36,639 bases of DNA. It comes from an uncultured Chitinophagales bacterium (GTDB lineage: Bacteria; Bacteroidota; Bacteroidia; Chitinophagales; JAHDHT01). This document shows, in pieces, positions 5,365 to 35,036 of this stretch. Location of the stretch: positions 1 to 36,639 of the forward strand of contig CALHDG010000264.1 of assembly GCA_938023075.1 (NCBI GenBank), given 5' to 3'. The notes under the pieces are model-generated. The model was given only the letters and a program-made list of their open reading frames with translations, was not told the origin of the DNA and did not search any database. Position 1 is the stretch's first letter; each line of letters opens with the position of its first letter. Both the position numbers and the translations under genes were made by a program.

Positions 5365-6636
5365 TTGACACAGCCAAATGCTGATACATTAATTGAAAAA
5401 ATATCTAATGATAGATTAAATTTTATTCGAGGATTTACGAGAAATTTAAGATCAATTTTTGCAGATTTTGAAGAAGTTATAAAATCAATCATTTTTATTG
5501 ATTATAGCACAGTCATAATATACCTTAACTTAAAAATAGAATATAAGATTGCAATTGATTTTGATATTAAAGGTAAATATAATGAAGAATTTAAATGTTT
5601 TGTAAGTACAAAGAGCTTTTCTCTAAATAAATTTGAGTATGGTGATAAGAAAATAAAAATTTTAGAATTATATTATAAAATTTGCTTTGACATAAGTAGC
5701 AAAGGAATCTTATATAATTATATTAAAAATAATTTCCAAATGTTGGTACAAAAGCATCCTAAGATTATTAGAGATATAATTAAATTAAAACAGAAATACG
5801 TAATAGAAAAGGTCAATAGCTATACATGTAAAAATGACCCGTTAATAAATTTTGAATCACCTAAACTAAAAGTAATAAAAGTAGTTGAAACTCAAATCAC
5901 AGAATATAATAGAGTAGGACGTGATAATAAAAGACAAATAGAAAACTACACTTATTTTGAATTAGAAACTAATGATGATTACAGAGGTAGTAGAATTAAG
6001 TTAAAAGAGATATTAGGAAAACTAAAATCATTCGACTATGAAAGTTTTTATTATTATGGACCAGCTCACAAATTTAGAGTTGAATATCATAAAGAAACAG
6101 ATTTAAAGTTAAGCAAAGCAGCTTTAGATTCTAAATTGGAAGAAGCATCTGATAATAAATACTATAAATATTTATTATCAAAAGAAGAGTTATATCTAAT
6201 AATTTGGATGTTAAACTATAATTTAGATAAAATACTAAATTCTATCGAACAGTATGATACTATTTTATTTCCTTTTAAAAGAAGTTTTTACATAAATATA
6301 TTACTCTATTTGGTATATATACTTGATCTTATATCAAATAATAGTGACAAGTTTGTAATTAAGCATTACTCAAACTCAATACCATTTGCAAAAAAACCAT
6401 TAGACATTTATGAATTTAAAAGTAAAATTGATTGGTTATTTAGACGTTATAGTTTAGATGAAGATGACTTATCGTTTTTAGACAAAAACCTTGAAAACTA
6501 CATAATCAAATACTGTAATAATAAAAACAAGACTTCATTTGATTCAAAATATATACACAGTAACTTTCTAAATGCAGTTGATCTAAATTTTATGTTCAAG
6601 AAAGACTATGCTTTAAGAAAGAAAGAATCTAATTAA
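5365..6636 (+). CDS. Hypothetical element protein with TTG start (423 aa)
   Basis: Long open frame without an early ATG: the in-frame TAA at 5341 and the TTG at 5365 bracket the likely start, and the first internal Met is near residue 125. The protein is Lys/Asn/Ile/Tyr-rich and soluble or peripherally hydrophobic; a hydrophobic stretch near residues 303-317 (YINILLYLVYILDLI) could be a buried helix or one membrane segment. No motif I recognise. The start codon lies inside a copy of AATTTGACACAG, the motif repeated next to the integrase. The last 8 bases overlap the integrase 3' end tail to tail. Cargo or replication function is possible but cannot be told from sequence. Confidence 0.6.
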   Translation: MTQPNADTLIEKISNDRLNFIRGFTRNLRSIFADFEEVIKSIIFIDYSTVIIYLNLKIEYKIAIDFDIKGKYNEEFKCFVSTKSFSLNKFEYGDKKIKILELYYKICFDISSKGILYNYIKNNFQMLVQKHPKIIRDIIKLKQKYVIEKVNSYTCKNDPLINFESPKLKVIKVVETQITEYNRVGRDNKRQIENYTYFELETNDDYRGSRIKLKEILGKLKSFDYESFYYYGPAHKFRVEYHKETDLKLSKAALDSKLEEASDNKYYKYLLSKEELYLIIWMLNYNLDKILNSIEQYDTILFPFKRSFYINILLYLVYILDLISNNSDKFVIKHYSNSIPFAKKPLDIYEFKSKIDWLFRRYSLDEDDLSFLDKNLENYIIKYCNNKNKTSFDSKYIHSNFLNAVDLNFMFKKDYALRKKESN

Positions 6637-7855
6637 CTACTTCAATCACTTCCAAATTCATTTCATCAATTACCTCATTACCATAACTATCTAAATAAAT
6701 ACCAGTAACTTTATTGCCATACTCATGTCCTAATGCTTCTGCAATTTTATCTTTAGAATAACCCAATTGTTTAGCCACATTAGCCCAAGTATATCGAGCA
6801 TAATAAAAGGTTAATTTAGGTATATTTAATTGTGTAGCTACCTTTTTTAAATACCGGGTATTAGTATTTTTTAAAGCAGCTTTAGCAATTCTCGGAATTT
6901 CAGTTGAAGTATATTTATCATCTATAATGGGTAATAAATATTTACTTCCTGGGGGCTTATACCTATTCAATATGTCTAAAGCAATGGGTTCAACTTTTAT
7001 AGAATAGATTTTATTCGTCTTAGCCCTTCTGTAAGTTATCCTGTTGTCTTGTAAATTATCATTAGCTTGTAAATTATCATTAGTAAGTAGTGCTAAATCT
7101 CTAAAATTATTCCCTCGCAAATAAAAAGATAGCATAAAATAATCCCTCGACCTTTTAATGGCACTTCCATTGGCAAGCTCTAAATTTTTAATGGCTTTTA
7201 TTTGATGTATAGTTAAACTTCTGCTTAAAGTTTTTTCTGTTTTAATGGTAAACTGTTTAAAAGGGTAATGTTTAGCATCAACCAAATTACTTTTTATCGC
7301 CTGATTGTATAAAGCCCTTATTGCTCTAAAATAATTAGCAATACTATTGGTCTTAATTCCATTGCTTTTAAGTTGTGTTTCCCATTTTACAAGATTCGTA
7401 TAATTGATTTCTTCAAATGGCAGAGTAGCAGAATTGCATAATTTTTTTAACACATTACATGCAGTTATATAAGTCTCTGCATTACCCATTTTACCCGCTT
7501 TTATTTGCTGTTGATACATCGTATTAGCAAATGCAAAAAAGTCTTGTATTGGCTCTTTACTGGGCTTATAGAAGGTTCTTATATCAGTTATGCAAATGTT
7601 TGGTTTACTAAGTGAACATTCAATGAGTTCTTTCTGATGTTGATTTACTATTTGAAGCAGTTGAAGATTTAGTACCTCCCAATTAGGATGGTTTTGTCTT
7701 AATTGACTTAGAGTAGTATTCCAATATTTAGCATCTAATGAAATGCCAATACTTTTATACCAAATTTTCTGATTAACAGTAATCTTTAATTTTACTGAAT
7801 AATGTCCTGAGTTTAATTTTCTTCTTTTATCCAATATCAATTTTAAACGCACCAT
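6629..7855 (-). CDS. Tyrosine recombinase/integrase (phage-type, Bacteroidota group)
   Basis: A 408-residue site-specific recombinase that would integrate and excise the element at the adjacent tRNA gene. It has an N-terminal arm-type DNA-binding region (about 1-90), a SAM-like core-binding domain (about 100-195) and a catalytic domain (about 210-400). Catalytic positions visible are Arg247 in LRGNN, Lys279 in RRAKTNK, Arg354 in YYARYTWA, His377 in ALGHE and the nucleophile Tyr387 in IYLDSY. The first position of the HxxR box is Tyr, a substitution I have seen in Bacteroidota integrases. A 6-residue tandem repeat (NDNLQA/NDNLQD, 259-270) comes from an 18-bp duplication. The gene ends overlapping the 423-aa gene and starts about 165 bp from the tRNA 3' end, the standard layout for a tRNA-targeting integrase. 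Confidence 0.93.
   Translation of the reverse strand: MVRLKLILDKRRKLNSGHYSVKLKITVNQKIWYKSIGISLDAKYWNTTLSQLRQNHPNWEVLNLQLLQIVNQHQKELIECSLSKPNICITDIRTFYKPSKEPIQDFFAFANTMYQQQIKAGKMGNAETYITACNVLKKLCNSATLPFEEINYTNLVKWETQLKSNGIKTNSIANYFRAIRALYNQAIKSNLVDAKHYPFKQFTIKTEKTLSRSLTIHQIKAIKNLELANGSAIKRSRDYFMLSFYLRGNNFRDLALLTNDNLQANDNLQDNRITYRRAKTNKIYSIKVEPIALDILNRYKPPGSKYLLPIIDDKYTSTEIPRIAKAALKNTNTRYLKKVATQLNIPKLTFYYARYTWANVAKQLGYSKDKIAEALGHEYGNKVTGIYLDSYGNEVIDEMNLEVIEVVN
7048..7083. repeat. 18-bp perfect tandem duplication inside the integrase gene
   Basis: The 18-bp unit starting CTTGTAAATTATC occurs at 7048-7065 and again at 7066-7083. It keeps the frame and adds six residues just after the catalytic Arg247 strand, in a loop before the catalytic Lys hairpin. 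Slippage duplication is the likely origin. Confidence 0.9.
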
Positions 7856-11415: not shown

Positions 11416-11712
11416 ATGAAAAGGATAATTGCCAAAAGTACGTTAAGAGAATTTTGGGGGAAATATCCTGAAGCAGAACAATATTTAAAAACCTGGTATG
11501 ATACTGCTAAAAAAGCAAAGTGGTTGACACCTAATGATGTTAAGCAATCTTATGTTTCGGCAAGTATTTTAAAAAATGGGCGAGTAGTTTTTAACATTAA
11601 AGGAAACAACTACCGTTTGGTTGTGAAATTCAATTATGAAAAACAATGGGCGTTTATTCGTTTTGTAGGAACACACGCCGAATATGATAAAATAGATGCT
11701 AATAATATTTAA
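11416..11712 (+). CDS. higB: HigB-family toxin (type II toxin-antitoxin, RelE fold)
   Basis: A 98-residue HigB toxin, expected to cleave mRNA, probably on the ribosome. The MKRIIAKSTLREFWGKYP start, the KAKWLTPNDVKQSY segment (about residues 35-48), VVFNIKGNNYRLVVKFNY (about 56-73) and FIRFVGTHAEYDKID near the end are typical of the HigB_toxin family (a RelE/ParE-superfamily branch). The gene is intact. The antitoxin gene follows with a 9-bp gap, toxin first, the usual order in higBA. Regulation is probably by HigA at the promoter containing the TAACTTTG box directly upstream. Confidence 0.92.
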   Translation: MKRIIAKSTLREFWGKYPEAEQYLKTWYDTAKKAKWLTPNDVKQSYVSASILKNGRVVFNIKGNNYRLVVKFNYEKQWAFIRFVGTHAEYDKIDANNI

Positions 11713-12533: not shown

Positions 12534-13274
12534 ATGGCAACAGAACTAACAAGAACGCAATGGATTGAAATACTTCTTGACGAAAATATTACTCATGAAG
12601 TTGATTTAAAAATATTGCAGGCATTATATGGTTGTGAAGACCATAAAGCACCTGGCAAAGTAATTGGGCAATTGGTAGGTAATACAGGTAAAAAACCCTC
12701 AAGTGCAGTAAATTCAGAAATTGGACGATATGCTAAGCGAATTGGAGAATACTATGAGATAAATTTAACAGTAAGAGAAAATAAAAAATTTAAATATTGG
12801 GATTTATTCTTCAAAGGTTGGCACGAAAATTCTTCTTTTGTATGGCAACTAAAACCCGAACTAAAAGTAGCACTTGAAGAAACAGAACTTACGGATGAGT
12901 TTCAATATCCAGAAGAAATACCTACCGATGAATTAAATTCTTTTGCAGAAGGACTTCAAAAAACAATAAAGGTTAATACTTATGAAAGAAATCCGAAGGC
13001 AAGACAAAAATGTATAGAACATTGGAAACCTATTTGTTCTGTTTGTGATTTCGATTTTGAAAAAATGTATGGCAAATTAGGAAGCGGATTTATTCACGTC
13101 CATCATTTAAATCCCGTTTCAGAAGTAGGTCAAACTTATCAAATTAACCCAATAAATGATTTACGACCGGTTTGCCCAAATTGCCATGCTATGCTACACA
13201 AAAAGAATCCTCCCTTAACTATTAAAGCACTGAAGGAAATTATTCATAAACCTAAAAATTACAATATATATTGA
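12534..13274 (+). CDS. HNH endonuclease with unknown N-terminal domain
   Basis: A 246-residue protein with a zinc-containing HNH nuclease domain at the C-terminus (about 150-225). CSVC (168-171) and CPNC (214-217) form the likely zinc site. HVHH (188-191) and PINDLRPVC, with Asn208, form the beta-beta-alpha metal catalytic core, with a further His at 222. The first 145 residues, including a possible helical DNA- or modification-sensing part, do not match a domain I can name. Nucleases of this build are often modification-dependent (McrA-like) or defence enzymes, and this one sits between two decayed toxin-antitoxin loci; the defence role is inference. The frame is intact. The start ATG at 12534 gives MATELTRTQW; a clear promoter is not seen. 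Confidence 0.85.
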   Translation: MATELTRTQWIEILLDENITHEVDLKILQALYGCEDHKAPGKVIGQLVGNTGKKPSSAVNSEIGRYAKRIGEYYEINLTVRENKKFKYWDLFFKGWHENSSFVWQLKPELKVALEETELTDEFQYPEEIPTDELNSFAEGLQKTIKVNTYERNPKARQKCIEHWKPICSVCDFDFEKMYGKLGSGFIHVHHLNPVSEVGQTYQINPINDLRPVCPNCHAMLHKKNPPLTIKALKEIIHKPKNYNIY

Positions 13275-13715: not shown

Positions 13716-13831
13716 TAGTTGTAACCATTAATGCATCTATAAAACTACAGTTTAATATTTTATGACTGAAATAGCAATGTTCTGAGGTTTTAAATGAAAA
13801 ATTCATCTAACTTTCAAAATTTCATTTTGTC

Positions 13832-13851
13832 TTGTACGCAATTTCGTACAA
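13832..13851. promoter_or_regulatory. Palindromic operator of the yefM-yoeB locus
   Basis: TTGTACG (13832-13838) and CGTACAA (13845-13851) form a perfect inverted repeat around CAATTT, 11 bp before the antitoxin ATG. YefM-family antitoxins bind palindromes built on TGTACA-like halves in E. coli, and both arms here contain TGTAC. A TAACTTTC box (13808-13815) upstream is a near match to the -7 consensus, which would put the palindrome at the transcription start. Confidence 0.65.
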
Positions 13852-13862
13852 ATAAAAATTTA

Positions 13863-14129
13863 ATGAAAGCAATCACCGTATCCAACTTTAGGTCGAATTT
13901 AAAAACCCATTTAGATGAGGTTAGTAAGAACTCCGAGATTATCATCATACCCAGAAACAACAATGAAAAAGATGCTGTTGTAGTGATGTCAATTTCAGAA
14001 TATAATTCAATTATCGAAACCGAATACTTAATGAAGTCTCCTGAAAACAAAAAACGATTGTTAAAATCTTTAGATGAGTTGAACAAAGGAAAAACCAGAA
14101 AAGTAAATATGGATGAGTTGTTAAAATGA
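13863..14129 (+). CDS. Phd/YefM-family antitoxin
   Basis: An 88-residue antitoxin from ATG 13863, chosen over the upstream in-frame ATG at 13794 because MKAITVSNFRSNLKTHLDEV is the normal YefM N-terminus and the operator palindrome would otherwise lie in the coding region. The DNA-binding dimer domain spans about 1-60 (IIIIPRNNNEKDAVVVMSISEYNSI) and the toxin-binding tail about 60-88. The stop TGA (14127-14129) overlaps the toxin start by ATGA, so the pair was translationally coupled. The antitoxin is intact although its toxin gene is frameshifted. Confidence 0.88.
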   Translation: MKAITVSNFRSNLKTHLDEVSKNSEIIIIPRNNNEKDAVVVMSISEYNSIIETEYLMKSPENKKRLLKSLDELNKGKTRKVNMDELLK

Positions 14130-14395
14130 ATGTTGAATTACGGAAACGGCTTGGAACGATTTAATGTATTGGATGGATAATGATATAACCATTGTCCGTA
14201 AAATTAGCGACTTAATAAAATCGATAAAACGAACATCAACTAAAAGAATTGGTAAACCCGAACCACTCAGATATGAATTTAAAGGTTGCTGGTCGAGAAG
14301 AATTAATTTAAAACACCGCCTAGTTTATAAAATTACCGGCAAAAGAGGTGTTGATCAAAAGTGTACTATTTTGCAATGCATATATCATTTATTAA
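14126..14395 (+). pseudogene. yoeB: Txe/YoeB-family toxin gene with frameshifts at both ends
   Basis: The start ATG (14126) overlaps the antitoxin stop and gives MNVEL before the frame runs into TAA; a one-base shift near 14138 restores the toxin as TETAWNDLMYWMDNDITIV and onwards. The body contains the YoeB signature, EPLRYEFKGCWSRRINLKHRLVYKI (in order), with the ribosome-dependent mRNase residues recognisable. At the end CIYHL runs on without the expected stop; a one-base shift near 14389 would give YHY and TAA at 14393-14395. The frame between the shifts is otherwise open, and without a second shift runs to 14532, into the 3' end of the convergent glucanase gene. A sequencing error is the alternative. 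Confidence 0.8.
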
Positions 14396-14436
14396 TCCTC
14401 AAGTTCAAGCTTCAAAAGCCAAACTCCCAATTCAAC

Positions 14437-16413
14437 TCAATCGACAATAAAGACCTTCTCACTGCGCACTTCTTCTTTATTCTGAATTGTAAAAATATAC
14501 ATCCCGTTACTCAGGTTTTTAAAGGGATATAAACCGGTGTGTTGCAATCCTGGTTCAACAGCTAATGGCTGTTGAAATAACTCCTTTCCATGAACATCAA
14601 AAACATGAATATGGTAAGTGGAGGCAGAAGCCGCTGTAAGCGCCAACTCCGACTGTTGGTTTAATTTAGGAGAAATGGTACCAAGATTATAATTGACAAA
14701 AACGAAGATAATATTAAAAACAAAAATATCTTGACTAATGGAAGCACTACATCCATTGCCATCATCATATTGATAGGTTATAGTATGAATGCCCGGACCA
14801 GCAAGACTTGGATTGAATCCATTAAAAATGACTCCTGCTCCACTAAAGCTTCCTCCTGGCGGAGTGGCATTTAAATTAATTGGCGAATTAGAACTCACGG
14901 AGGCGGGCAAACCATTAATGCTCAATTCAACATTGCAATTTTGTGCATCTTCTTCCCAAACAATATCATCTACACACATATCAAAAATATAAGATGGGAA
15001 AGCACCATCAACACTCGAAATGGCAAACATATAAAAGATATCTTGAAAAGCAATTGAACCCGCAAAGTCAATTAAGGGAATAGTTACTTCACCCCATGCA
15101 CCATCGCGCACCAAACCATATTGTGTTTGAAAGGCTGGAAGAGTTATCCAACTTTCATTGGTGAAATTATCGGTAATGCCAATTCTAAAATCTATATCAG
15201 CCGGAATTTTAATCTTAAATCTAAGCTGCCCGTTTGGTATATAATTATACATATTTACTCCAAACGTTGAAGCTACACCTGCGCCAAACCAATTGTTGAT
15301 ACTGGTATTTTGCCAAGCTAACACTTCACTACCGTCGGGAGCTGTGCAATTGTTGTTTCCTTGTAAGGTGCCGCCCCAAACATAAATTTCGCCATCCGTA
15401 CCAAAAGCCAATTCATTAGAAGTTGGTGTGTTTTCGGTATAAACACCAAAGGTGCCGCTTTGTGCTTGCACTGCGGCATAATCAGTTTCCACGGTGCCGT
15501 GCCCATTCCATTTGTACACTCTAACATAATCAATCAGCATTTTACCGGGCAACGGAGCAGTAATTGCTGCATTGGTTGCCGCATCGGTCAAATTTCCGCC
15601 AACCGCTAAATTCATCAGCAAATAAAATGGTTTAGTAAATTCCGATAAGTTTCCACTGGCATCAAACGGCAAGGGTGCGGCGTACAAATCATATTCTACA
15701 CCATTATCTTCTAAGGTAAATCGCATTTGAGTCGGCTCCCAATACAACCGGTAAATTACAAAACGATCCGTTAAAGGCGAACTGGCTACATAGGGATTGT
15801 TAAAACCAACATCCCACGAAATGCTGCCAAACGAACCATCGGCATTAGCAAAAATGGCATTGGCACCTACATAACTATTTACATCCGAGTTGGGATATCC
15901 TTGAGTTGCCCGCGAGCTTTGCTTGTGTCCCATCTCCATCAAATCAATTTCACCATTAGCGGGCCAAGTTAAGTTTGCCGTTCCTAACATCCACAAGGCG
16001 GGCCACAATCCGGTATCTAAATCGGGCACTTTGGCGCGTATTTCAATTAAGCCATAATGTACCGATAACTTATCTTGCGTAATTACTTTTCCCGAAGTAA
16101 AACTGTTGTTGCCCACCGATTGATTTCGGGCTTCTAATACTAAGGCATTGTTGCCCGGCTCGCTCGGTATGGGTTCAATATTTACATTGTTGGCTAAATA
16201 CCATTGCAACTCAGCATTGCCCCAACCGCATATCCCTACATTGCAGCCATCGCCTTCGTCTTTGGTCCAAACCGAAGTATCAAAAGTATCAAAGTTATCT
16301 TCCCATAAAATTGCACCCACTTGTGCCTTAATATCTGAAAAGGAGAACAACACCATACTAAGAATTAATAAGGGAGCAAAATTAGCTTTAAGCATACGTG
16401 TAAGTATTGACAT
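14437..16413 (-). CDS. Secreted GH16 beta-glucanase with T9SS sorting domain (658 aa)
   Basis: Exported glycoside hydrolase family 16 enzyme, probably cutting beta-1,3- or mixed-linkage glucans such as laminarin. A signal peptide (about 1-30, ending FSDIKA) is followed by the GH16 domain (about 33-302) with the catalytic GEIDLMEMG: nucleophile Glu155, Asp157 and acid/base Glu160. Residues about 303-490 look like a beta-sandwich carbohydrate-binding module. About 495-565 form an Ig/PKD-like segment (NATPPGGSFSGAGV). About 580-658 are a T9SS type A sorting domain ending ITFNL-like strands and KVFIVD, which anchors or releases the protein at the cell surface. The start could be Met1 or Met7; both give a signal peptide. 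It is monocistronic and convergent with the yoeB remnant. Confidence 0.92.
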   Translation of the reverse strand: MSILTRMLKANFAPLLILSMVLFSFSDIKAQVGAILWEDNFDTFDTSVWTKDEGDGCNVGICGWGNAELQWYLANNVNIEPIPSEPGNNALVLEARNQSVGNNSFTSGKVITQDKLSVHYGLIEIRAKVPDLDTGLWPALWMLGTANLTWPANGEIDLMEMGHKQSSRATQGYPNSDVNSYVGANAIFANADGSFGSISWDVGFNNPYVASSPLTDRFVIYRLYWEPTQMRFTLEDNGVEYDLYAAPLPFDASGNLSEFTKPFYLLMNLAVGGNLTDAATNAAITAPLPGKMLIDYVRVYKWNGHGTVETDYAAVQAQSGTFGVYTENTPTSNELAFGTDGEIYVWGGTLQGNNNCTAPDGSEVLAWQNTSINNWFGAGVASTFGVNMYNYIPNGQLRFKIKIPADIDFRIGITDNFTNESWITLPAFQTQYGLVRDGAWGEVTIPLIDFAGSIAFQDIFYMFAISSVDGAFPSYIFDMCVDDIVWEEDAQNCNVELSINGLPASVSSNSPINLNATPPGGSFSGAGVIFNGFNPSLAGPGIHTITYQYDDGNGCSASISQDIFVFNIIFVFVNYNLGTISPKLNQQSELALTAASASTYHIHVFDVHGKELFQQPLAVEPGLQHTGLYPFKNLSNGMYIFTIQNKEEVRSEKVFIVD

Positions 16414-25595: not shown

Positions 25596-25649
25596 TGGGT
25601 AAAAGTACACTTTTTTGCCACATATTTATACCGAACAGCCATCAACTTA

Positions 25650-25718
25650 ACCGTTTAGCTGACTGTACTTGCCGTTTACTAATTGTAATGCAATAGGTAA
25701 TTTACTTCATCTACTTTC
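25650..25718 (+). promoter_or_regulatory. Promoter of secreted paralogue 1 with LytTR-like direct repeats
   Basis: ACCGTTTAG (25650-25658) and GCCGTTTAC (25671-25679) are direct repeats with a 21-bp period and 12-bp spacer; TACTTTC (25712-25718) follows 40 bp after the second core and is a degenerate -7 box. The first repeat fits the LytTR-family consensus [TA][AC][CA]GTTN[AG][TG] fully, and 12-13 bp spacing is the family standard. The same layout occurs at 30567-30635. Confidence 0.7.
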
Positions 25719-25758
25719 ACCATCAATTCAACATTTCAAACTTCTAAAATTTAAACAG

Positions 25759-28700
25759 ATGAAAACGAATGATTACCTCTTTTATCCTATTAAACTTTTT
25801 AAACCCTTTAAAATGAAATTTTTTTTACTGATCTTAACTTTATTTTTTGGAACCTTTCAATTGGTACAAGCACAAACCGCTTGTGCAGATTTTGTTGCCG
25901 GTACTTATACCGTTACCCAAGAAAACTCTTTTTTCGGTCCAATAGATGTTTATCACTTCAATTGCATAGATGATATTCTGTTGTACCCCTCTTGTTCAAT
26001 TGGTGCAGCAAGCTACCATATGCGGGTTGCCGAATTTGATTTAAATTCCTGGACATGGACAAAAGATTTTTATGGAGGTTGGGAATCAGGTCCGGTACCT
26101 TCCATCATTAGTGTTTCTGATTATTTCCCTCCAAACGAACCCACCTGCGAAAAAATTTATGCAGTCGGTTTTGTAGAAGGGCCAACCTGGAATCCTGCAG
26201 ATGTATTGTTTTTTACAATTGATTGTCAAGATATTCCCTTAGAAGAAACCTATGCCTGCAAAGAAAACATATTGTATCCGAACCATACAGAAACCTTTGA
26301 CAAAGCTTTCGATCAAGTACTTTTAGATGATGGTACCAGAGTAATTACAGGAACCACCTACATTGGTAATCATATGCGACTTTTTATTAAAGAACTTGAT
26401 CCATCTGGAAATACAATACGCAAACATTCTTATCCTATTCAAGGCGATGACGTTTTAAATGTTCAAATAATTTATGACAAACAGACCGATGAATATGTCT
26501 TATTTTTTGATACCCGAATCGGCAGTGACAGAGATGTGTATTTTGTAAGAATTGATTACGGAACACTCAACACTTTTATTGAATATTACGGACCTTTGGT
26601 TAATGATATAGGGAATTTTTCGCAAGAATATGCTGTAAAAATTGAGGATGACTTGAATGATAAATATATGCTGGTAGTTAATCAAGTAATACCGGGAGAA
26701 ACAAAAAGTTATGTAGTAATGGTTGACAAAACTAATTCGTATCTCTATTGTCCCTCTTATATCCAAATTAATAACAGCAAAACAGTTGTTAGTCACGATA
26801 TTATAGAAACCGGTGGTAGAATAAATGATTTAGGTTGCGTTGATAAAACATCTTATTTGCTTATTGGTTCAGTAGATAATAATGCATTTATAGTAGGCTT
26901 AAATTGTAATGGAGAAATACAACCCAATGCTAACATTTTTGACGTAGATGCAAATGAAGTTACCAGAGACCCGGCTAAACGTATTCAGTATTATAATGGA
27001 AATTTTTATATCGCTGGCGAAACTGGTTCAATTTTTTCAACAAATGGAAGTATAAGCGGCAAAATATGGCTTGGTTCATTTTCCTTTAACGATGCCTTTA
27101 AAGCTAATTTAATCTGGTTAAATATGTATGAGAAAAATAGTGTACGAAAAGAATCACTTGTTGATTTAGATTACTCTGATGAACTATTATATTTAACTGG
27201 ACAAACTGAAATAGAAGATGTTGTAATATCAGTTAATGGTAATATCATTGGACCTAAAGCGTATATCTTTTCAACTGATTTAATTGGCAATCCTATTTGG
27301 TCAAAAGAATACTTTGAAAACTCTAATACCGAATCTCACATTTGTGATATTGAATTATATTGCGGTGCCATTTATGGAGTTGGCGGATGTAATGAACGAT
27401 ATTGGATTAATGATCCAGAATTTCCAGTTGATTATGTTGCTTCCCGAAACTTTGATACTTATCGCAACAAAACCAATTTATCTGGTGCGCTTGCTGGAGA
27501 TTCCTGTTATGAAGAGATTTATTTTGAACCCATTGAAAGGCAAGTAGCTGTTGAATTGGTAGAAACTCAGCCTTATGGCGAATGCCGTGAAGGCGACAGA
27601 CCGGGTTATGGAGAAGAATTAGTTTGTGAGTTGGCTTGTTGTGGTGACTCTGGTTGTCAAATATCATCAACAATACGGGTAGATACACAAGAAAATTGCC
27701 CTTGCTGTTTTATGTTAGATTTAAGCAATGTTAGTGTAAGCTCTCAGGCAACTTCTATTCAAATAGATATTACCAATCCATCAAGTGTGTTTTTTGATCA
27801 AAATTCAATATCTACTTCATTAAACTTGGCTAATTATACTTCAACATCATTAACAATAAACAACAATGGTAGTTTGCTACCTAATGGAAATACCAACAGC
27901 TATTTAAAATTTTGTTTTGGCAATAGTAGCACTTTAGCAACCAACCAAACATTTACCATCAAATATTTTGATATTAATGGAAATGAGTTGGTAGATTGTG
28001 AACAAGAGTTTGTTACAAATTGTGAATTACCACCTACCGATAAAGGATGTGTTGCAGTAACAGAAATTAGTGTAGAATGTGATTCATTAAATTATGGTCA
28101 ATTCAAGTTCACTTATCAGGTAACTAATTTAACCACTAATCATATATTAGACGCCTTACAATTCACCGTTGTAAATCCTGCAACCGGTATTATATTGCCA
28201 ACTACTGTAAATGCGATTGTTGCCCCAATTAATCCGGGACAAACATCTACTAATCAATGTATTGATATTTATGATGTTCCACCCGGTCCTTATCCGAAAC
28301 AGGTAGATATTATTTTTGGTGCGAATGGCTATCATCAGATGGATTCAACTTTATTTTGCTGTCACGACAGAATGGATACTTTGCGCATCACATTACCAGA
28401 TTGTACAAATTGTATAGATATAGTTGAACACAATGTTTACTGTGATGATAATGGAGATTATTATTTAGATTTTTGTGTCGCCAACAATTCAACCCCTTTG
28501 TTTATGGCGGATGAATTAGATATTGCCAAACTATCTTCTACTCCACCTTCCATTGGTTTGAGCCAATATTTATGGAATAACACCTCTAATCCAGGCGATT
28601 TCCCAATCACTTCTACAACCCCATTTTGCGAAACAGTACAAATTATTGGTGTAAATCCACAAGCAGGAGATGTGATTAGTTTAGAATTTAGATTTAATAA

Positions 28701-30453
28701 TGTTGCTTTAGATTCTTGTTGTGTTGAAAGGGAAATATTGAATATTACTTTGCCAGAATGTTTTGATTGTGATGTTTCTGAACTGGGTATATTATCTAAT
28801 TATAGAGCGGCTATTACATGTGGCACCAGTACCTCAATGTCTCCCAATTATACATTAGGGTATATAGACGTGGTAGATCCGGTAATACAAGGCAATACTA
28901 CACGTCAGCAAGTGAGCGTAGGAGACTATCATCACCCATCATGGGTAGTAGATTCAATCGGTAATGTATTTGGCTTAACCATTGACCGGGATGGTAATGT
29001 ATATGCAGCCGCATCAGCCAATTATCCTTCCGAATTTTTTAAACTTGGACAGGCAATTTTGAGATATGGTGATATAGGTGGCGGTGCAAATGATTTAAGC
29101 GCAGCAGGCACTATATATAAAATTGACCGACTTACCGGACAGGCAAATGTATTCACTGTACTTCCTCAACAGGCATTTACATTTAACCATACTCCTTGTT
29201 ACTCATTAACAGGAATTCCGCCAGTTACACGAACAACCGGACCCGCATTAGGTAACATTGTATATGATGAAATTCATCATCAGATGTTTGCTGCCAATTG
29301 GGAAGATGGTCGTATTTATAGAATTGCAATGAATGGAAGCATAATAGACTGGTTTGACCCATTTACACTTGATAATAACTTGCCTGGCTTACCAATTGAT
29401 CCTATTCCTTATGGATTGGATGTAAACTTAACAAGTACTGAATTATTTTTTGGAACATTATTCAATGGACCAGACTTATATTCAATAGCACTTACCTCCT
29501 CTGGTGGTTTTAGCACTGCTTCCCCAACCTTTCATCAATCATTTCCATTACCTCCTTTAGGAAAACTATCAATATCTGATTTAGAATTTCTACCAAACGG
29601 AGACTTAATGGTTGGTTTGAGGAAAAGTATTGATGTTTCTTCTCCATTTTCTCACGCATGCAATCATTATGGAACGAGCTATATAGTATCGCAAAATACA
29701 ACTACAGGTCTATACTCCAATAATGTTCAACTCTGTGCAACTCAAGATTCTAATGTTGAAGACGACCAATATGGAGGAGTTACATATTATCAACGGCAAG
29801 ATGGTACGATTGACTATTTAGTATCTTCATCGGATATGCTTAACTACTTGGGTCCTCATGGAATAGCAGTTATCCCTGAATATGCAACCGGATGTCCAAA
29901 AAATATTTGCGCGGTTATACCATATAGCCCAATGACGGTTACTACAGATGCCAAAGGTATTGGCGGAGATGTTCAAGTATTTAACTGTATTGAACCCAAT
30001 CGTAATCCTTGCCCACCCATCATCATAAAAAACGATGTTCCCATTTTAGATGACATTTACCATGCAGCTCAAAAATTAGAATCGGCAGGTACAGTGTCAT
30101 CAACTGGTAATGTGGATTTTAAAGCCGGGCAGAACATTCGTCTAAATACAGGTTTTAAAGTCGCAGCAGGTGCCACTTTTAGCGCAGACATTGAGCCTTG
30201 CTGTTGTTGCGACGATCCATTAAACGACTTAACTTGGTTACAACCATTTGTAGACGATCCGAATTATGCCATTTCAAGAGGGCTTTACCAAAATCAATGT
30301 GTGTTTATTGTTACTGATTTTTGTTTGGTGAGCGACGGAGTAACTTCCTATTACGATTGTCAAGGCAACCTAATTTGCGAGTCCTACCAAGTTGGAACAA
30401 CTTGTCCAGCCAATTTTATTGTACAAAATAGTACGCTGTTACAAGGCTGTTAA
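25759..30453 (+). CDS. Large secreted Cys-rich surface protein, paralogue 1 (1564 aa)
   Basis: I start at ATG 25759 (MKTNDYLFYPIKLF), because it matches the second paralogue's start and lies after the promoter; an inner ATG at 25813 (MKFFLLILTLFF) is also possible. After the signal peptide (ending LVQAQ) comes an N-terminal domain shared with the downstream paralogue (TACADFVAGTY...TQENSFFGP). A propeller-like region with repeated N-x-D/G strand motifs follows to about residue 600. Then come Cys-rich beta domains (about 620-1020), a six-bladed, SMP-30-like repeat area (about 1030-1400; FGLTIDRDGNVYAAA), a coathanger-like strand (FKAGQNIRLNTGFKVAAG), and a Cys-rich end with ENQC-like pairs. 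No T9SS tail is obvious. Role inferred: cell-surface or matrix protein. Confidence 0.8.
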   Translation: MKTNDYLFYPIKLFKPFKMKFFLLILTLFFGTFQLVQAQTACADFVAGTYTVTQENSFFGPIDVYHFNCIDDILLYPSCSIGAASYHMRVAEFDLNSWTWTKDFYGGWESGPVPSIISVSDYFPPNEPTCEKIYAVGFVEGPTWNPADVLFFTIDCQDIPLEETYACKENILYPNHTETFDKAFDQVLLDDGTRVITGTTYIGNHMRLFIKELDPSGNTIRKHSYPIQGDDVLNVQIIYDKQTDEYVLFFDTRIGSDRDVYFVRIDYGTLNTFIEYYGPLVNDIGNFSQEYAVKIEDDLNDKYMLVVNQVIPGETKSYVVMVDKTNSYLYCPSYIQINNSKTVVSHDIIETGGRINDLGCVDKTSYLLIGSVDNNAFIVGLNCNGEIQPNANIFDVDANEVTRDPAKRIQYYNGNFYIAGETGSIFSTNGSISGKIWLGSFSFNDAFKANLIWLNMYEKNSVRKESLVDLDYSDELLYLTGQTEIEDVVISVNGNIIGPKAYIFSTDLIGNPIWSKEYFENSNTESHICDIELYCGAIYGVGGCNERYWINDPEFPVDYVASRNFDTYRNKTNLSGALAGDSCYEEIYFEPIERQVAVELVETQPYGECREGDRPGYGEELVCELACCGDSGCQISSTIRVDTQENCPCCFMLDLSNVSVSSQATSIQIDITNPSSVFFDQNSISTSLNLANYTSTSLTINNNGSLLPNGNTNSYLKFCFGNSSTLATNQTFTIKYFDINGNELVDCEQEFVTNCELPPTDKGCVAVTEISVECDSLNYGQFKFTYQVTNLTTNHILDALQFTVVNPATGIILPTTVNAIVAPINPGQTSTNQCIDIYDVPPGPYPKQVDIIFGANGYHQMDSTLFCCHDRMDTLRITLPDCTNCIDIVEHNVYCDDNGDYYLDFCVANNSTPLFMADELDIAKLSSTPPSIGLSQYLWNNTSNPGDFPITSTTPFCETVQIIGVNPQAGDVISLEFRFNNVALDSCCVEREILNITLPECFDCDVSELGILSNYRAAITCGTSTSMSPNYTLGYIDVVDPVIQGNTTRQQVSVGDYHHPSWVVDSIGNVFGLTIDRDGNVYAAASANYPSEFFKLGQAILRYGDIGGGANDLSAAGTIYKIDRLTGQANVFTVLPQQAFTFNHTPCYSLTGIPPVTRTTGPALGNIVYDEIHHQMFAANWEDGRIYRIAMNGSIIDWFDPFTLDNNLPGLPIDPIPYGLDVNLTSTELFFGTLFNGPDLYSIALTSSGGFSTASPTFHQSFPLPPLGKLSISDLEFLPNGDLMVGLRKSIDVSSPFSHACNHYGTSYIVSQNTTTGLYSNNVQLCATQDSNVEDDQYGGVTYYQRQDGTIDYLVSSSDMLNYLGPHGIAVIPEYATGCPKNICAVIPYSPMTVTTDAKGIGGDVQVFNCIEPNRNPCPPIIIKNDVPILDDIYHAAQKLESAGTVSSTGNVDFKAGQNIRLNTGFKVAAGATFSADIEPCCCCDDPLNDLTWLQPFVDDPNYAISRGLYQNQCVFIVTDFCLVSDGVTSYYDCQGNLICESYQVGTTCPANFIVQNSTLLQGC

Positions 30454-30494
30454 TTATATAAAATGCACTTTACAAATTAAGTAAAGCAGTAATG

Positions 30495-30532
30495 GAAAGG
30501 ATGCCGGTTTTTGCTGGTGTCCTTTCTTTTTG
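30495..30532 (+). terminator. Intrinsic terminator after paralogue 1
   Basis: GAAAGGATGCCGG (30495-30507) pairs with CTGGTGTCCTTTC (30514-30526), including G-U pairs, around TTTTTG and is followed by TTTTT. It lies 42 bp after the stop codon. Confidence 0.85.
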
Positions 30533-30566
30533 TAATACCATAATCCCCAATTTGTACCCCAATTTA

Positions 30567-30635
30567 ACCGTTTACCTTACTCCTCTTACCGTTTAATAAT
30601 TGTGGTTGGTAAGCAATAACATATATTCTACTTTC
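30567..30635 (+). promoter_or_regulatory. Promoter of secreted paralogue 2 with LytTR-like direct repeats
   Basis: ACCGTTTAC (30567-30575) and ACCGTTTAA (30588-30596) repeat with the same 21-bp period as upstream of paralogue 1; TACTTTC (30629-30635) again lies exactly 40 bp after the second core. Bases after the second repeat (TAATTGT) are also shared between the two promoters. Confidence 0.7.
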
Positions 30636-30677
30636 ACAATCGAATATATCTTTGTTCAACATCTAAACCAAAAAAAA

Positions 30678-33551
30678 ATGAAAACGAATTACTGCTTTAT
30701 TAATTTATTTAAACTTTTAAAACGCTTGAAAATGAGAAAATTATTACTATGTTTAAGTTTACTTTCAATATTTTTTCAAACTGCCGAAGCACAAACAGCA
30801 TGCGCCAATTTTATTACTGGTAATTATACTACCATAACGCAAGAAAATTCATTTTTCGGACCTGGTGACGTGTATCATTTTGAATGTCTCGATAATGTTT
30901 TATTGGATGGTTCTTGCACATCAGGTGCAACAGATTACCATCTACGAATTGCAGAATTTGACTTGAATAGCTGGTCTTTTACGAAAGATTATATTAGTGA
31001 TTGGGTAGCCAATTCACCACCTTCTGCAACCATTGATGTGTCTTCGTATTTTCCAACAACCGAACCAACTTGTGGTAAAATATATACAGTGATTCTTGCG
31101 GTAGGTCCGGTATGGGATGTAACACCACCTTTGTTTTTCACTATTGACTGCCCCTCCATTCCATTTGAGGAAACTTACGCTTGCAAAGAAAATTTGCACA
31201 TAGATAGCACTTCTGTTGATGTGGCTTATGATCAATTATTTTTGAACGACGGTACAAGAGTAATAACCGGCTACACCAAATTAGGCAACCAGGTAAGTTT
31301 GTTCATCGAAAAAATGGATGCAAATGGAGTTGTTTTCGATAAAAAGCAATACCCCATACAAGGTGATTTTGTAAGCAATGTTCAAATTGTTTTAGACAAA
31401 CCCAACAATGAGTTTTTGTTATTTTTTGATACCAGAGTAGCCAATAATCATAGTGTGTATTTGCTGAATGTAAATAGTACCAGTTTAGCACCAATTGAAT
31501 ATCATAGTAGAATAGTTCCGGAAATTAACAACTCTAATGAATATGCCATAAAAATAGAGCCTGACCTAAATGGTGGTTATATGTTGTTGGTTAATCAATC
31601 GGAAAGCATCAACCGGTATGCCTACACGGTTTATACACAACGCTTGGGTACCGAATTTGGTTTTTCGCACAATCAAATCAGTATAAATATTATAAATTCC
31701 GATAATGTATTTGTATATGATATTATAGAAACCAGCGGAAGAATAGGCACAACGGCTACTTGCGCAAGTTCATTTTTACTTTGTGGTTCTGTAAATAATA
31801 AGGCTTTTTTGTTGGGCATTGATTGTTTTGGAAGAGCTTACAGCACCGCCAATACATTTGATGTTGATGGAAATATGTTTACCACCGACCCTGCAAAAAG
31901 GTTAGCCTATTATAATAATAAATTTTATGTGGCTGGTGAAACAGGTACTTTTAGTGATTTTAATACTCAAATAAGTGGTAAAACATGGTTAGGCGAATTT
32001 GAGTTGACTCATATACTTGCCCCTGTTGAATATTTTTCAGCTTACAATACCTGGTTAAATATCTATGAAAAAGACAACAATCGAAAAGAATCGCTACTTG
32101 ATTTAGATTTTTCTGATGGATACTTATATGCCACCGGACAAACCGGAATTGAAGATCACTTTGTTATTACTATTGGAAATACAGTTGGACCCAAAGCATA
32201 CCTTACTAAATTTGATTTAAGTGGCCAAATCATTTGGAGTAAGCATTATTATGAACAAAACAATACAGAAACCAAAATAAATGATATTGAATTGATTTGT
32301 GGTTCAATACAAGGCACTGGTTACTGTCACGATAGATTGTTGGATCTGACAGTACTTTTACCAACACTTTTTATTACTAATCAATTTGTATATAAAAATA
32401 AATTAAATTTAAACGGATTGGTTGCAGAAGCAGCTTGCTATCACAATTTAAAATTTAGCAAGATTGCCGTTAACCTGCCTGTAGATGAAGCCTTTAGCAT
32501 ATCAGATGGATTAAGTTTAATACCTGAGCAACTTTCATCAGGTTATGATAATTTACTATGTGAAGCAGCGTGTTGTTCCAATGTTGGAGTATATTGCCCA
32601 TCTGTTATTATATTAGATGAAACATCGATATTACCTGATACTTATCATGCGGATATTAGGGTTGAATCTGCCGGGAGCGTGGAGAACAGCACTATTGTTG
32701 AATTGAAAGCCGGGCAAAATGTTAGGTTGAATAATGGTTTTAGCGTGGAAGCTGGGGCAAATTTTAGTGCGCGTATTGAGCCTTGCAACTGTAATTTACC
32801 AGCACCAGTTAATTTAACAATAGATGATGCAGATGCGAACAACATTTATTTAAGCTGGCAGCCAGTTACCGGTGTAAGCCAATATTATATTGAATATGTG
32901 GTTGATGGAGGAACACCAACGTATCATTACACCACCAATCCATATATTGCCATACCTTTTGTAGCAGGAACTGATCACCAATACACCGTTTTTACAGATT
33001 GTGGAGAAACCGGCAACCAAGGACCCACTGTGAGATTTACCAAAAGTACAGAATGTGTCGATTGCGACCCTGTACAAGATGTTGAAGTTACTTTTAATAA
33101 TGACAGTCTGGCAATTAGCTGGGATGGAGCTGAAAATGCCAGTTCGGTTTTAATAAATGTATATGATGAAAATGGAGACATTTTAGAAACATTTGAGGTA
33201 AATCCTGATGATGACCCTTTTGGAATACCGCAAAGTTTATTTGACGGAGAAGAGGTAATTGAAATTGGCGTTTCTGTTATTTGTAATTCACCGGATACTT
33301 TTAAAAATAATGTACTATATAGGGAGAATTGTCATGAAACGAATATAATCGTAATAGTTTCTGATGATGAACCATGGAGATACGGAGACTATTGCGGCAA
33401 ACCAAATGATAGACCATATAAAATACTATGTTCGCATACCGGAGCTTCTGCTACAATGGCAGAGTTCCAATGCATACATTGTGAAAATAGTAGCCCCAAA
33501 AACATAAATAATGTTATAAACTGCAATGTTAGCTGTAGTTGTATGAACTAA
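30678..33551 (+). CDS. Large secreted surface protein, paralogue 2 with FN3-like domains (957 aa)
   Basis: Start placed at ATG 30678 (MKTNYCFINLFKLLKRLKM), which matches paralogue 1 and follows an A-rich leader; the frame could be extended to 30600 only with poor starts. The signal peptide ends QTAEAQ. The N-terminal shared domain (TACANFITGNY, QENSFFGPGDVYHFEC) and the following propeller-like region (to about residue 640) align well with paralogue 1. The coathanger-like strand LKAGQNVRLNNGFSVEAG is also shared. Then two fibronectin III-like domains (about 710-880; PVNLTIDDADANNIYLSWQ, and DSLAISWDGAENASSVLIN) replace the long middle part of paralogue 1. The C-terminus is Cys-rich (CIHCENSS, CNVSCSCMN). 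No T9SS type A tail is seen. Confidence 0.8.
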   Translation: MKTNYCFINLFKLLKRLKMRKLLLCLSLLSIFFQTAEAQTACANFITGNYTTITQENSFFGPGDVYHFECLDNVLLDGSCTSGATDYHLRIAEFDLNSWSFTKDYISDWVANSPPSATIDVSSYFPTTEPTCGKIYTVILAVGPVWDVTPPLFFTIDCPSIPFEETYACKENLHIDSTSVDVAYDQLFLNDGTRVITGYTKLGNQVSLFIEKMDANGVVFDKKQYPIQGDFVSNVQIVLDKPNNEFLLFFDTRVANNHSVYLLNVNSTSLAPIEYHSRIVPEINNSNEYAIKIEPDLNGGYMLLVNQSESINRYAYTVYTQRLGTEFGFSHNQISINIINSDNVFVYDIIETSGRIGTTATCASSFLLCGSVNNKAFLLGIDCFGRAYSTANTFDVDGNMFTTDPAKRLAYYNNKFYVAGETGTFSDFNTQISGKTWLGEFELTHILAPVEYFSAYNTWLNIYEKDNNRKESLLDLDFSDGYLYATGQTGIEDHFVITIGNTVGPKAYLTKFDLSGQIIWSKHYYEQNNTETKINDIELICGSIQGTGYCHDRLLDLTVLLPTLFITNQFVYKNKLNLNGLVAEAACYHNLKFSKIAVNLPVDEAFSISDGLSLIPEQLSSGYDNLLCEAACCSNVGVYCPSVIILDETSILPDTYHADIRVESAGSVENSTIVELKAGQNVRLNNGFSVEAGANFSARIEPCNCNLPAPVNLTIDDADANNIYLSWQPVTGVSQYYIEYVVDGGTPTYHYTTNPYIAIPFVAGTDHQYTVFTDCGETGNQGPTVRFTKSTECVDCDPVQDVEVTFNNDSLAISWDGAENASSVLINVYDENGDILETFEVNPDDDPFGIPQSLFDGEEVIEIGVSVICNSPDTFKNNVLYRENCHETNIIVIVSDDEPWRYGDYCGKPNDRPYKILCSHTGASATMAEFQCIHCENSSPKNINNVINCNVSCSCMN

Positions 33552-35027: not shown

Positions 35028-35036
35028 ACCGTTTAA
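35028..35036. promoter_or_regulatory. Single LytTR-like half-site between the 481-aa gene and the regulator gene
   Basis: ACCGTTTAA occurs once here, 14 bp upstream of the 481-aa gene's ATG, identical to the second repeat of the paralogue 2 promoter; no partner 21 bp away is seen. Confidence 0.5.

Follow-up and report, generated by a model that had tools for sequence, protein, structure and literature searches.

The window, 36,639 nucleotides long, is a whole contig from one metagenome-assembled genome (MAG) of an uncultured Chitinophagales bacterium. Its forward strand encodes P0001 (25759..30453) and P0002 (30678..33551), two secreted paralogues of 1,564 and 957 amino acids (aa), each with a 3-coathanger stack domain (NF045639; 53 and 47 bits, respectively, against a cut-off of 26). 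They are 47 to 49% identical over the N-terminal ~600 aa. In both proteins, a typical signal peptide starts at a second in-frame ATG, preceded by a conserved 18-residue extension (MKTN...; 25759-25815 and 30678-30734); either ATG may be the true start. A search with the N-terminal domain finds no orthologues in GTDB contigs, and 398 genomes of the order have only weak homologues.

Convergent with P0002, on the reverse strand, is the gene for P0004 (33569..35014), a 481-aa protein that is predicted to be all-helical and belongs to a family with 33 matches in this genome. Members of this family are helical proteins of ~480 aa, and their genes are often convergent with (5 to 20 bp between the stops) or divergent from genes for large secreted LRR/coathanger proteins. 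The fold shows a weak TPR-like match to Rap/NprR-type proteins, which is not significant. Elsewhere in the window, a phage-type integrase (6629-7855), a HigB-type toxin (11416-11712), an HNH endonuclease (12534-13274), and a PhdYefM-YoeB pair (13794-14532) flank a gene cluster that includes rpsB-tsf and L13-S9. A 197-aa open reading frame at 19631-20224 matches domain 3 of EF-Tu at its beginning and is perhaps a repurposed fragment.

P0003 (35233..35853, forward strand) is a LytTR regulator (Pfam ID PF04397; 58.6 bits against a cut-off of 22.6) with a truncated, phosphoacceptor-less receiver remnant. It carries the sequence FVRVHRS, a match to the LytTR DNA-contact motif FhRhHRS (PMC4227749), and its LytTR domain folds like those of AgrA and ComE (Foldseek, best E value of 1e-8). 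A receiver domain is not detected in P0003 by Pfam. Its N terminus aligns with receivers, with Asn at the position of the phosphoacceptor Asp, but stops after the fourth strand and so lacks the C-terminal half of a receiver.

The sequence CCGTTTA is found twice upstream of each paralogue, at 25651 and 25672 and at 30568 and 30589, with the starts 21 bp apart; TACTTTC follows at 25712 and 30629, in both cases 40 bp past the start of the second repeat. These positions and spacings are exactly those given in the preliminary description. When read as 9-mers, the half-sites are ACCGTTTAG (25650..25658) and GCCGTTTAC (25671..25679) in the first promoter and ACCGTTTAC (30567..30575) and ACCGTTTAA (30588..30596) in the second, all on the forward strand and separated by 12-bp spacers. 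The core promoter of Bacteroidota consists of TTTG at -33 and TAnnTTTG at -7 (PMC7366714). Both promoters have the same candidate -7 box, TACTTTCA (25712..25719 and 30629..30636, forward strand), a poor match to TAnnTTTG. The second 9-mer ends 32 bp (~33 bp) before this box, and a -33 element would start ~9 to 10 bp downstream of the 9-mer; no good one is visible at either promoter. A single additional half-site is located in the divergent intergenic region between P0004 and the LytTR gene (35029..35035, forward strand), 204 bp upstream of P0003, whose own promoter contains no CCGTTTA pair. At this site, CCGTTTAATTGTTAAAA is conserved in a paralogous cassette on another contig, C63. Altogether, the 591 bp of intergenic DNA in the cassette include 5 copies of CCGTTTA, against 0.085 expected.

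A genome-wide scan, proposed in the preliminary description, shows that the exact pair is not scattered. The 6,124,846-base genome has two copies of CCGTTTA-N14-CCGTTTA, both at these promoters, whereas the frequency of CCGTTTA, estimated from 704 kb of sampled DNA, predicts 0.06 copies. Pairs with up to 2 mismatches number 85 genome-wide and show no excess over a reversed-pattern control (122), which points to an element of two promoters rather than a genome-wide motif. Among 150 genomes of the order, perfect matches to the pair with TACTTT at the right distance are found only at these two promoters.

Both upstream regions are homologous by descent, and the repeats might accordingly be seen as a neutral relic of a recent gene duplication, if not as chance. 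This explanation is contradicted already by the divergence of the two copies. Fourfold-degenerate coding sites of P0001 and P0002 are 37% identical, compared with the 30% expected at saturation, so the conserved promoter blocks cannot be attributed to recent duplication. The repeat block (25643-25686) retains 36 of 44 identical positions and the -7 block (25709-25719) 10 of 11, whereas their flanks retain 11 of 43 and 17 of 38. The 22-bp gap between the operator and the -7 box is random in sequence (6 of 22 identical), yet its length is exactly equal in both promoters. With silent DNA almost randomized while the blocks and their spacing are kept, the sequence of the sites and the distance between them have been under selection. 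Considering also that only 0.06 exact pairs are expected in the genome, a relic or a coincidence is highly improbable.

The preliminary description had classified these promoters as LytTR-type from the consensus [TA][AC][CA]GTTN[AG][TG] and the 12-bp spacing. One half-site, ACCGTTTAG at 25650, does fit the consensus fully, and the spacers are indeed 12 bp long. As an argument, the consensus is weak: the other three half-sites miss 1, 1, and 2 positions, and 25 of 261 background upstream regions also reach 14/16, so that the consensus scan does not discriminate. The layout fares better. LytTR sites have a common layout, with repeats of 9 to 11 nt and a spacer of 11 to 13 nt, and no common consensus (PMC4847170); in LytTR Regulatory Systems (LRS), most repeats are separated by 12 bp and lie ~10 bp upstream of the -35 element (PMC6193735). 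Both promoters have this layout, with two direct repeats of 9 to 11 nt and a 12-nt spacer, at a constant distance from the core promoter (40 bp from the second half-site to the -7 box).

This frame of 21 plus 40 bp was first noticed in the window. Independent sequence was then provided by 79 LytTR loci from other Bacteroidota, in which near-identical 9-mer pairs (at least 8 of 9 positions) upstream of TAnnTTTG were counted for all combinations of spacing (14 to 32) and distance (28 to 55). The maximum falls at spacing 21 and distances 39 (18 pairs) and 40 (16 pairs), with a mean of 0.5 per cell. For 10-mers, the same loci contain 41 sites in 30 loci at spacing 21, versus 0 to 9 at each of 15 other spacings from 15 to 30; many of these 41 sites come from Flavobacterium, near the start of the LytTR-holding operon, and not all of them are independent. 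Further contributors are MAGs of Bacteroidales, Saprospiraceae, Sphingobacteriales, and Ignavibacteriaceae. The 621-kb control set has 11 sites at spacing 21, which is also its top value, and part of these may be real sites. Aligned on the -7 box, the half-sites at the 79 loci are in the same register as those of the promoters at 25650 and 30567. This geometry, rather than the match to a consensus, supports the presence of a putative LytTR-type operator before both genes.

The best homologue of P0001 outside its own genome is encoded in a member of another family of the order (27% identity, E value of 2e-28) and also contains the coathanger domain. Its gene adjoins that of a divergent response regulator with REC and LytTR domains, and the long gene at this locus is read as the sensor of that regulator. 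Between the homologue and the regulator are the repeats ACCGATAATCCA and ACCGATAGTCCA, 21 bp apart, and the promoter has the structure CCGATAA-N14-CCGATAG-N33-TACTTTTG, in which the CCGATA repeats are 21 bp apart and TACTTTTG begins exactly 40 bp after the second repeat, CCGATAG. Relative to the window, the frame is kept and the half-site has changed. At this locus (L227:2450-9072), the promoter and the P0001 homologue are separated by a short LuxR-type HTH frame.

AraC-type half-sites are also ~21 bp apart, next to a weak -35 element, and the repeats could in principle serve another class of regulator, for instance an AraC-family activator, that likewise recognizes direct repeats spaced by two turns. 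None of the window proteins scanned has an AraC domain, the recurrence of this register is specific to LytTR loci, and the homologue with the same frame described above adjoins a LytTR gene. An AraC-like regulator is thus quite improbable here, and the LytTR-type operator is the preferred reading.

The genome encodes 17 LytTR domains in total, several of them with an apparently complete receiver. Receiver-less LytTR genes number 11, and each of the 11 is located within 3 kb of a gene for a coathanger-domain protein. By chance, such proximity is expected for 0.106 per gene, which gives ~2e-11 for 11 of 11, or 2e-8 if they are counted as 8 groups (clustering and relatedness ignored). The proteins of these cassettes include an S8 subtilase, M4 thermolysins, and M12B reprolysins. 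At loci from other genomes, the LytTR regulators are almost all ~250 aa long and have a receiver. Among the 79 GTDB loci, nearly all of which encode full-length response regulators, the combination of an orphan LytTR gene with a coathanger gene is absent. The expansion of receiver-less LytTR genes therefore looks lineage-specific. No relatives of P0003 are found in viral contigs.

Two further operator families of the 21 plus 40 type are found in the same genome. In the first, a pair of TTGCAAGC and TTGCAACC, 21 to 23 bp apart, precedes six coathanger paralogues of LytTR cassettes (contigs C203, C223, C153, C274, and, twice, C59; 43 to 66% protein identity), and several of the six promoters have a T[AT]CTTTT-like element ~39 bp past the pair. 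The strict form of this pattern occurs 4 times in the genome, always in those cassettes, and 0 times in the control. Most of these multi-copy cassettes, which combine a reprolysin-like coathanger protein with an LRR protein and LytTR, are located on short contigs that end at or close to the LytTR gene, so that the assembly probably collapses further copies. The second family consists of ACCATT[CT]AT (ACCATTCAT-type) pairs, with six intergenic copies in the genome, 4 of which are followed, at a distance of exactly 40 bp, by a TAnnTTT/TACCTTGC element (TACCTTTC, TAGTTTTG twice, and TACCTTGC). The arrangement ACCATTCATC(A/C)T-N-ACCATTCA at 21 bp is found on contigs C6, C262, C77, C105, C216, and C219 (L245, L246, and L248 to L251), and the ACCATTCA-type family probably represents the regulon of a different LytTR protein. 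Counts of the ACCATTCA pair in relatives are unusable because these pairs are mostly tandem heptamers; the relatives G113, G045, G042, and G055 have arrays of 7-bp tandem repeats (ACCATTC or ACTATTC) at many places.

The closest paralogous cassette, on C63, has CCGAAAA and CCATTCA in register before TACTTTTA; these sites are degenerate, and as an operator they are suggestive only. The cassettes on C34, C56, C101, C46, C21, and C68 contain no convincing repeat pair. The top geometric match, C68_15572, was dismissed as lying inside a coding sequence, and a CCGTTTA before the LytTR gene of C56 appears, by eye, to belong to a terminator-like hairpin.

Taken together, P0003 probably activates both secreted genes through LytTR-type operators. 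The sites and their restriction to these promoters, the selection on their sequence and spacing, the shared geometry at other LytTR loci, the LytTR domain, the decay of the receiver, and the recurrent combination of regulator and exoprotein genes are observed; that the sites are bound, that binding activates the genes, and that P0003 is the protein concerned is what we infer from sequence. In the proposed mechanism, the two ~9-bp direct half-sites, separated by exactly two helical turns (21 bp), would face the same side of the DNA, where two P0003 LytTR domains could bind them and recruit the housekeeping RNA polymerase. Such recruitment would make up for a poor -7 box and the lack of a -33 box, and both secreted proteins would be switched on together. 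P0003 itself probably descended from a LytR/AlgR-type response regulator. As its receiver has lost the phosphoacceptor Asp and the second half, its output would depend on how much of it is present, or on a partner, and not on phosphorylation.

P0003 itself is likely to bind these sites: its proximity, the recurrent cassette, and the CCGTTTA half-site at 35029 favor it as the regulator. The last of these, shared with C63, hints at feedback but could instead belong to the leader of P0004. Against this pairing are the absence of a repeat pair from its own promoter, the degenerate sites on C63, the lack of a convincing pair in the six other cassettes named above, and the abundance of LytTR domains in the genome, several of them attached to an apparently complete receiver. 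The sites might then be LytTR operators of a different protein, e.g., a full-length response regulator encoded elsewhere, with P0003 being a bystander or controlling something else, and the half-site, as CC[AG]TT[TC]A, does resemble the ACCATTCA sites, which are far from any cassette. Yet CCGTTTA is concentrated in this very cassette, including the gap between P0004 and the LytTR gene; the dispersed CCGTTTA pairs that a global regulator would need are absent from the genome; and every receiver-less LytTR gene has a coathanger gene nearby. Control by another LytTR protein therefore seems unlikely, and P0003 is retained as the probable activator.

The geometry described here, with half-sites 21 bp apart and the -7 box 40 bp on, apparently has not been described before, and literature searches revealed no LytTR operator map for Bacteroidota, where LytTR genes are abundant. 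It may allow prediction of LytTR targets from sequence in this phylum. More tentatively, and with some doubt on our part, the cassettes could represent a private-circuit module that has multiplied in this lineage: a receiver-less LytTR regulator beside each coathanger-tailed secreted protein (subtilase, thermolysin, reprolysin, or adhesin-like), with its own half-site in a common frame of 21 plus 40 bp, so that many exoproteins would be switched independently by insulated paralogous regulators. The expansion of receiver-less LytTR genes tied to secreted coathanger proteins offers a natural set for studying the insulation of paralogous regulators.

Among known systems, the LytR/AlgR-type response regulators of Bacteroidota align with P0003 along its length, the decayed N terminus matching the second beta-alpha-beta part of their receivers. 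P0003 differs from them in having Asn for the phosphoacceptor Asp and a receiver cut after the fourth strand, and no sensor kinase gene is found in the window. The LRS (HdrRM and BrsRM) similarly combine a LytTR regulator without a working receiver with repeats spaced by 12 bp. In contrast to these systems, there is no membrane inhibitor gene beside P0003 (its neighbors encode P0004 and a secreted protein with Por_Secre_tail), the promoter of the regulator lacks a repeat pair, and the presumed targets are exoprotein genes. The operators of the LytTR family (targets of AgrA, ComE, YpdB, and HdrR/BrsR) resemble the ones described here in having two ~9-bp direct repeats with a 12-bp spacer, ~9 to 10 bp upstream of the expected -33/-35 element, and a suboptimal core promoter, whereas the present operators are distinguished by a Bacteroidota core promoter (TAnnTTTG at -7), the half-site CCGTTTA, and their restriction to two sites in the genome.
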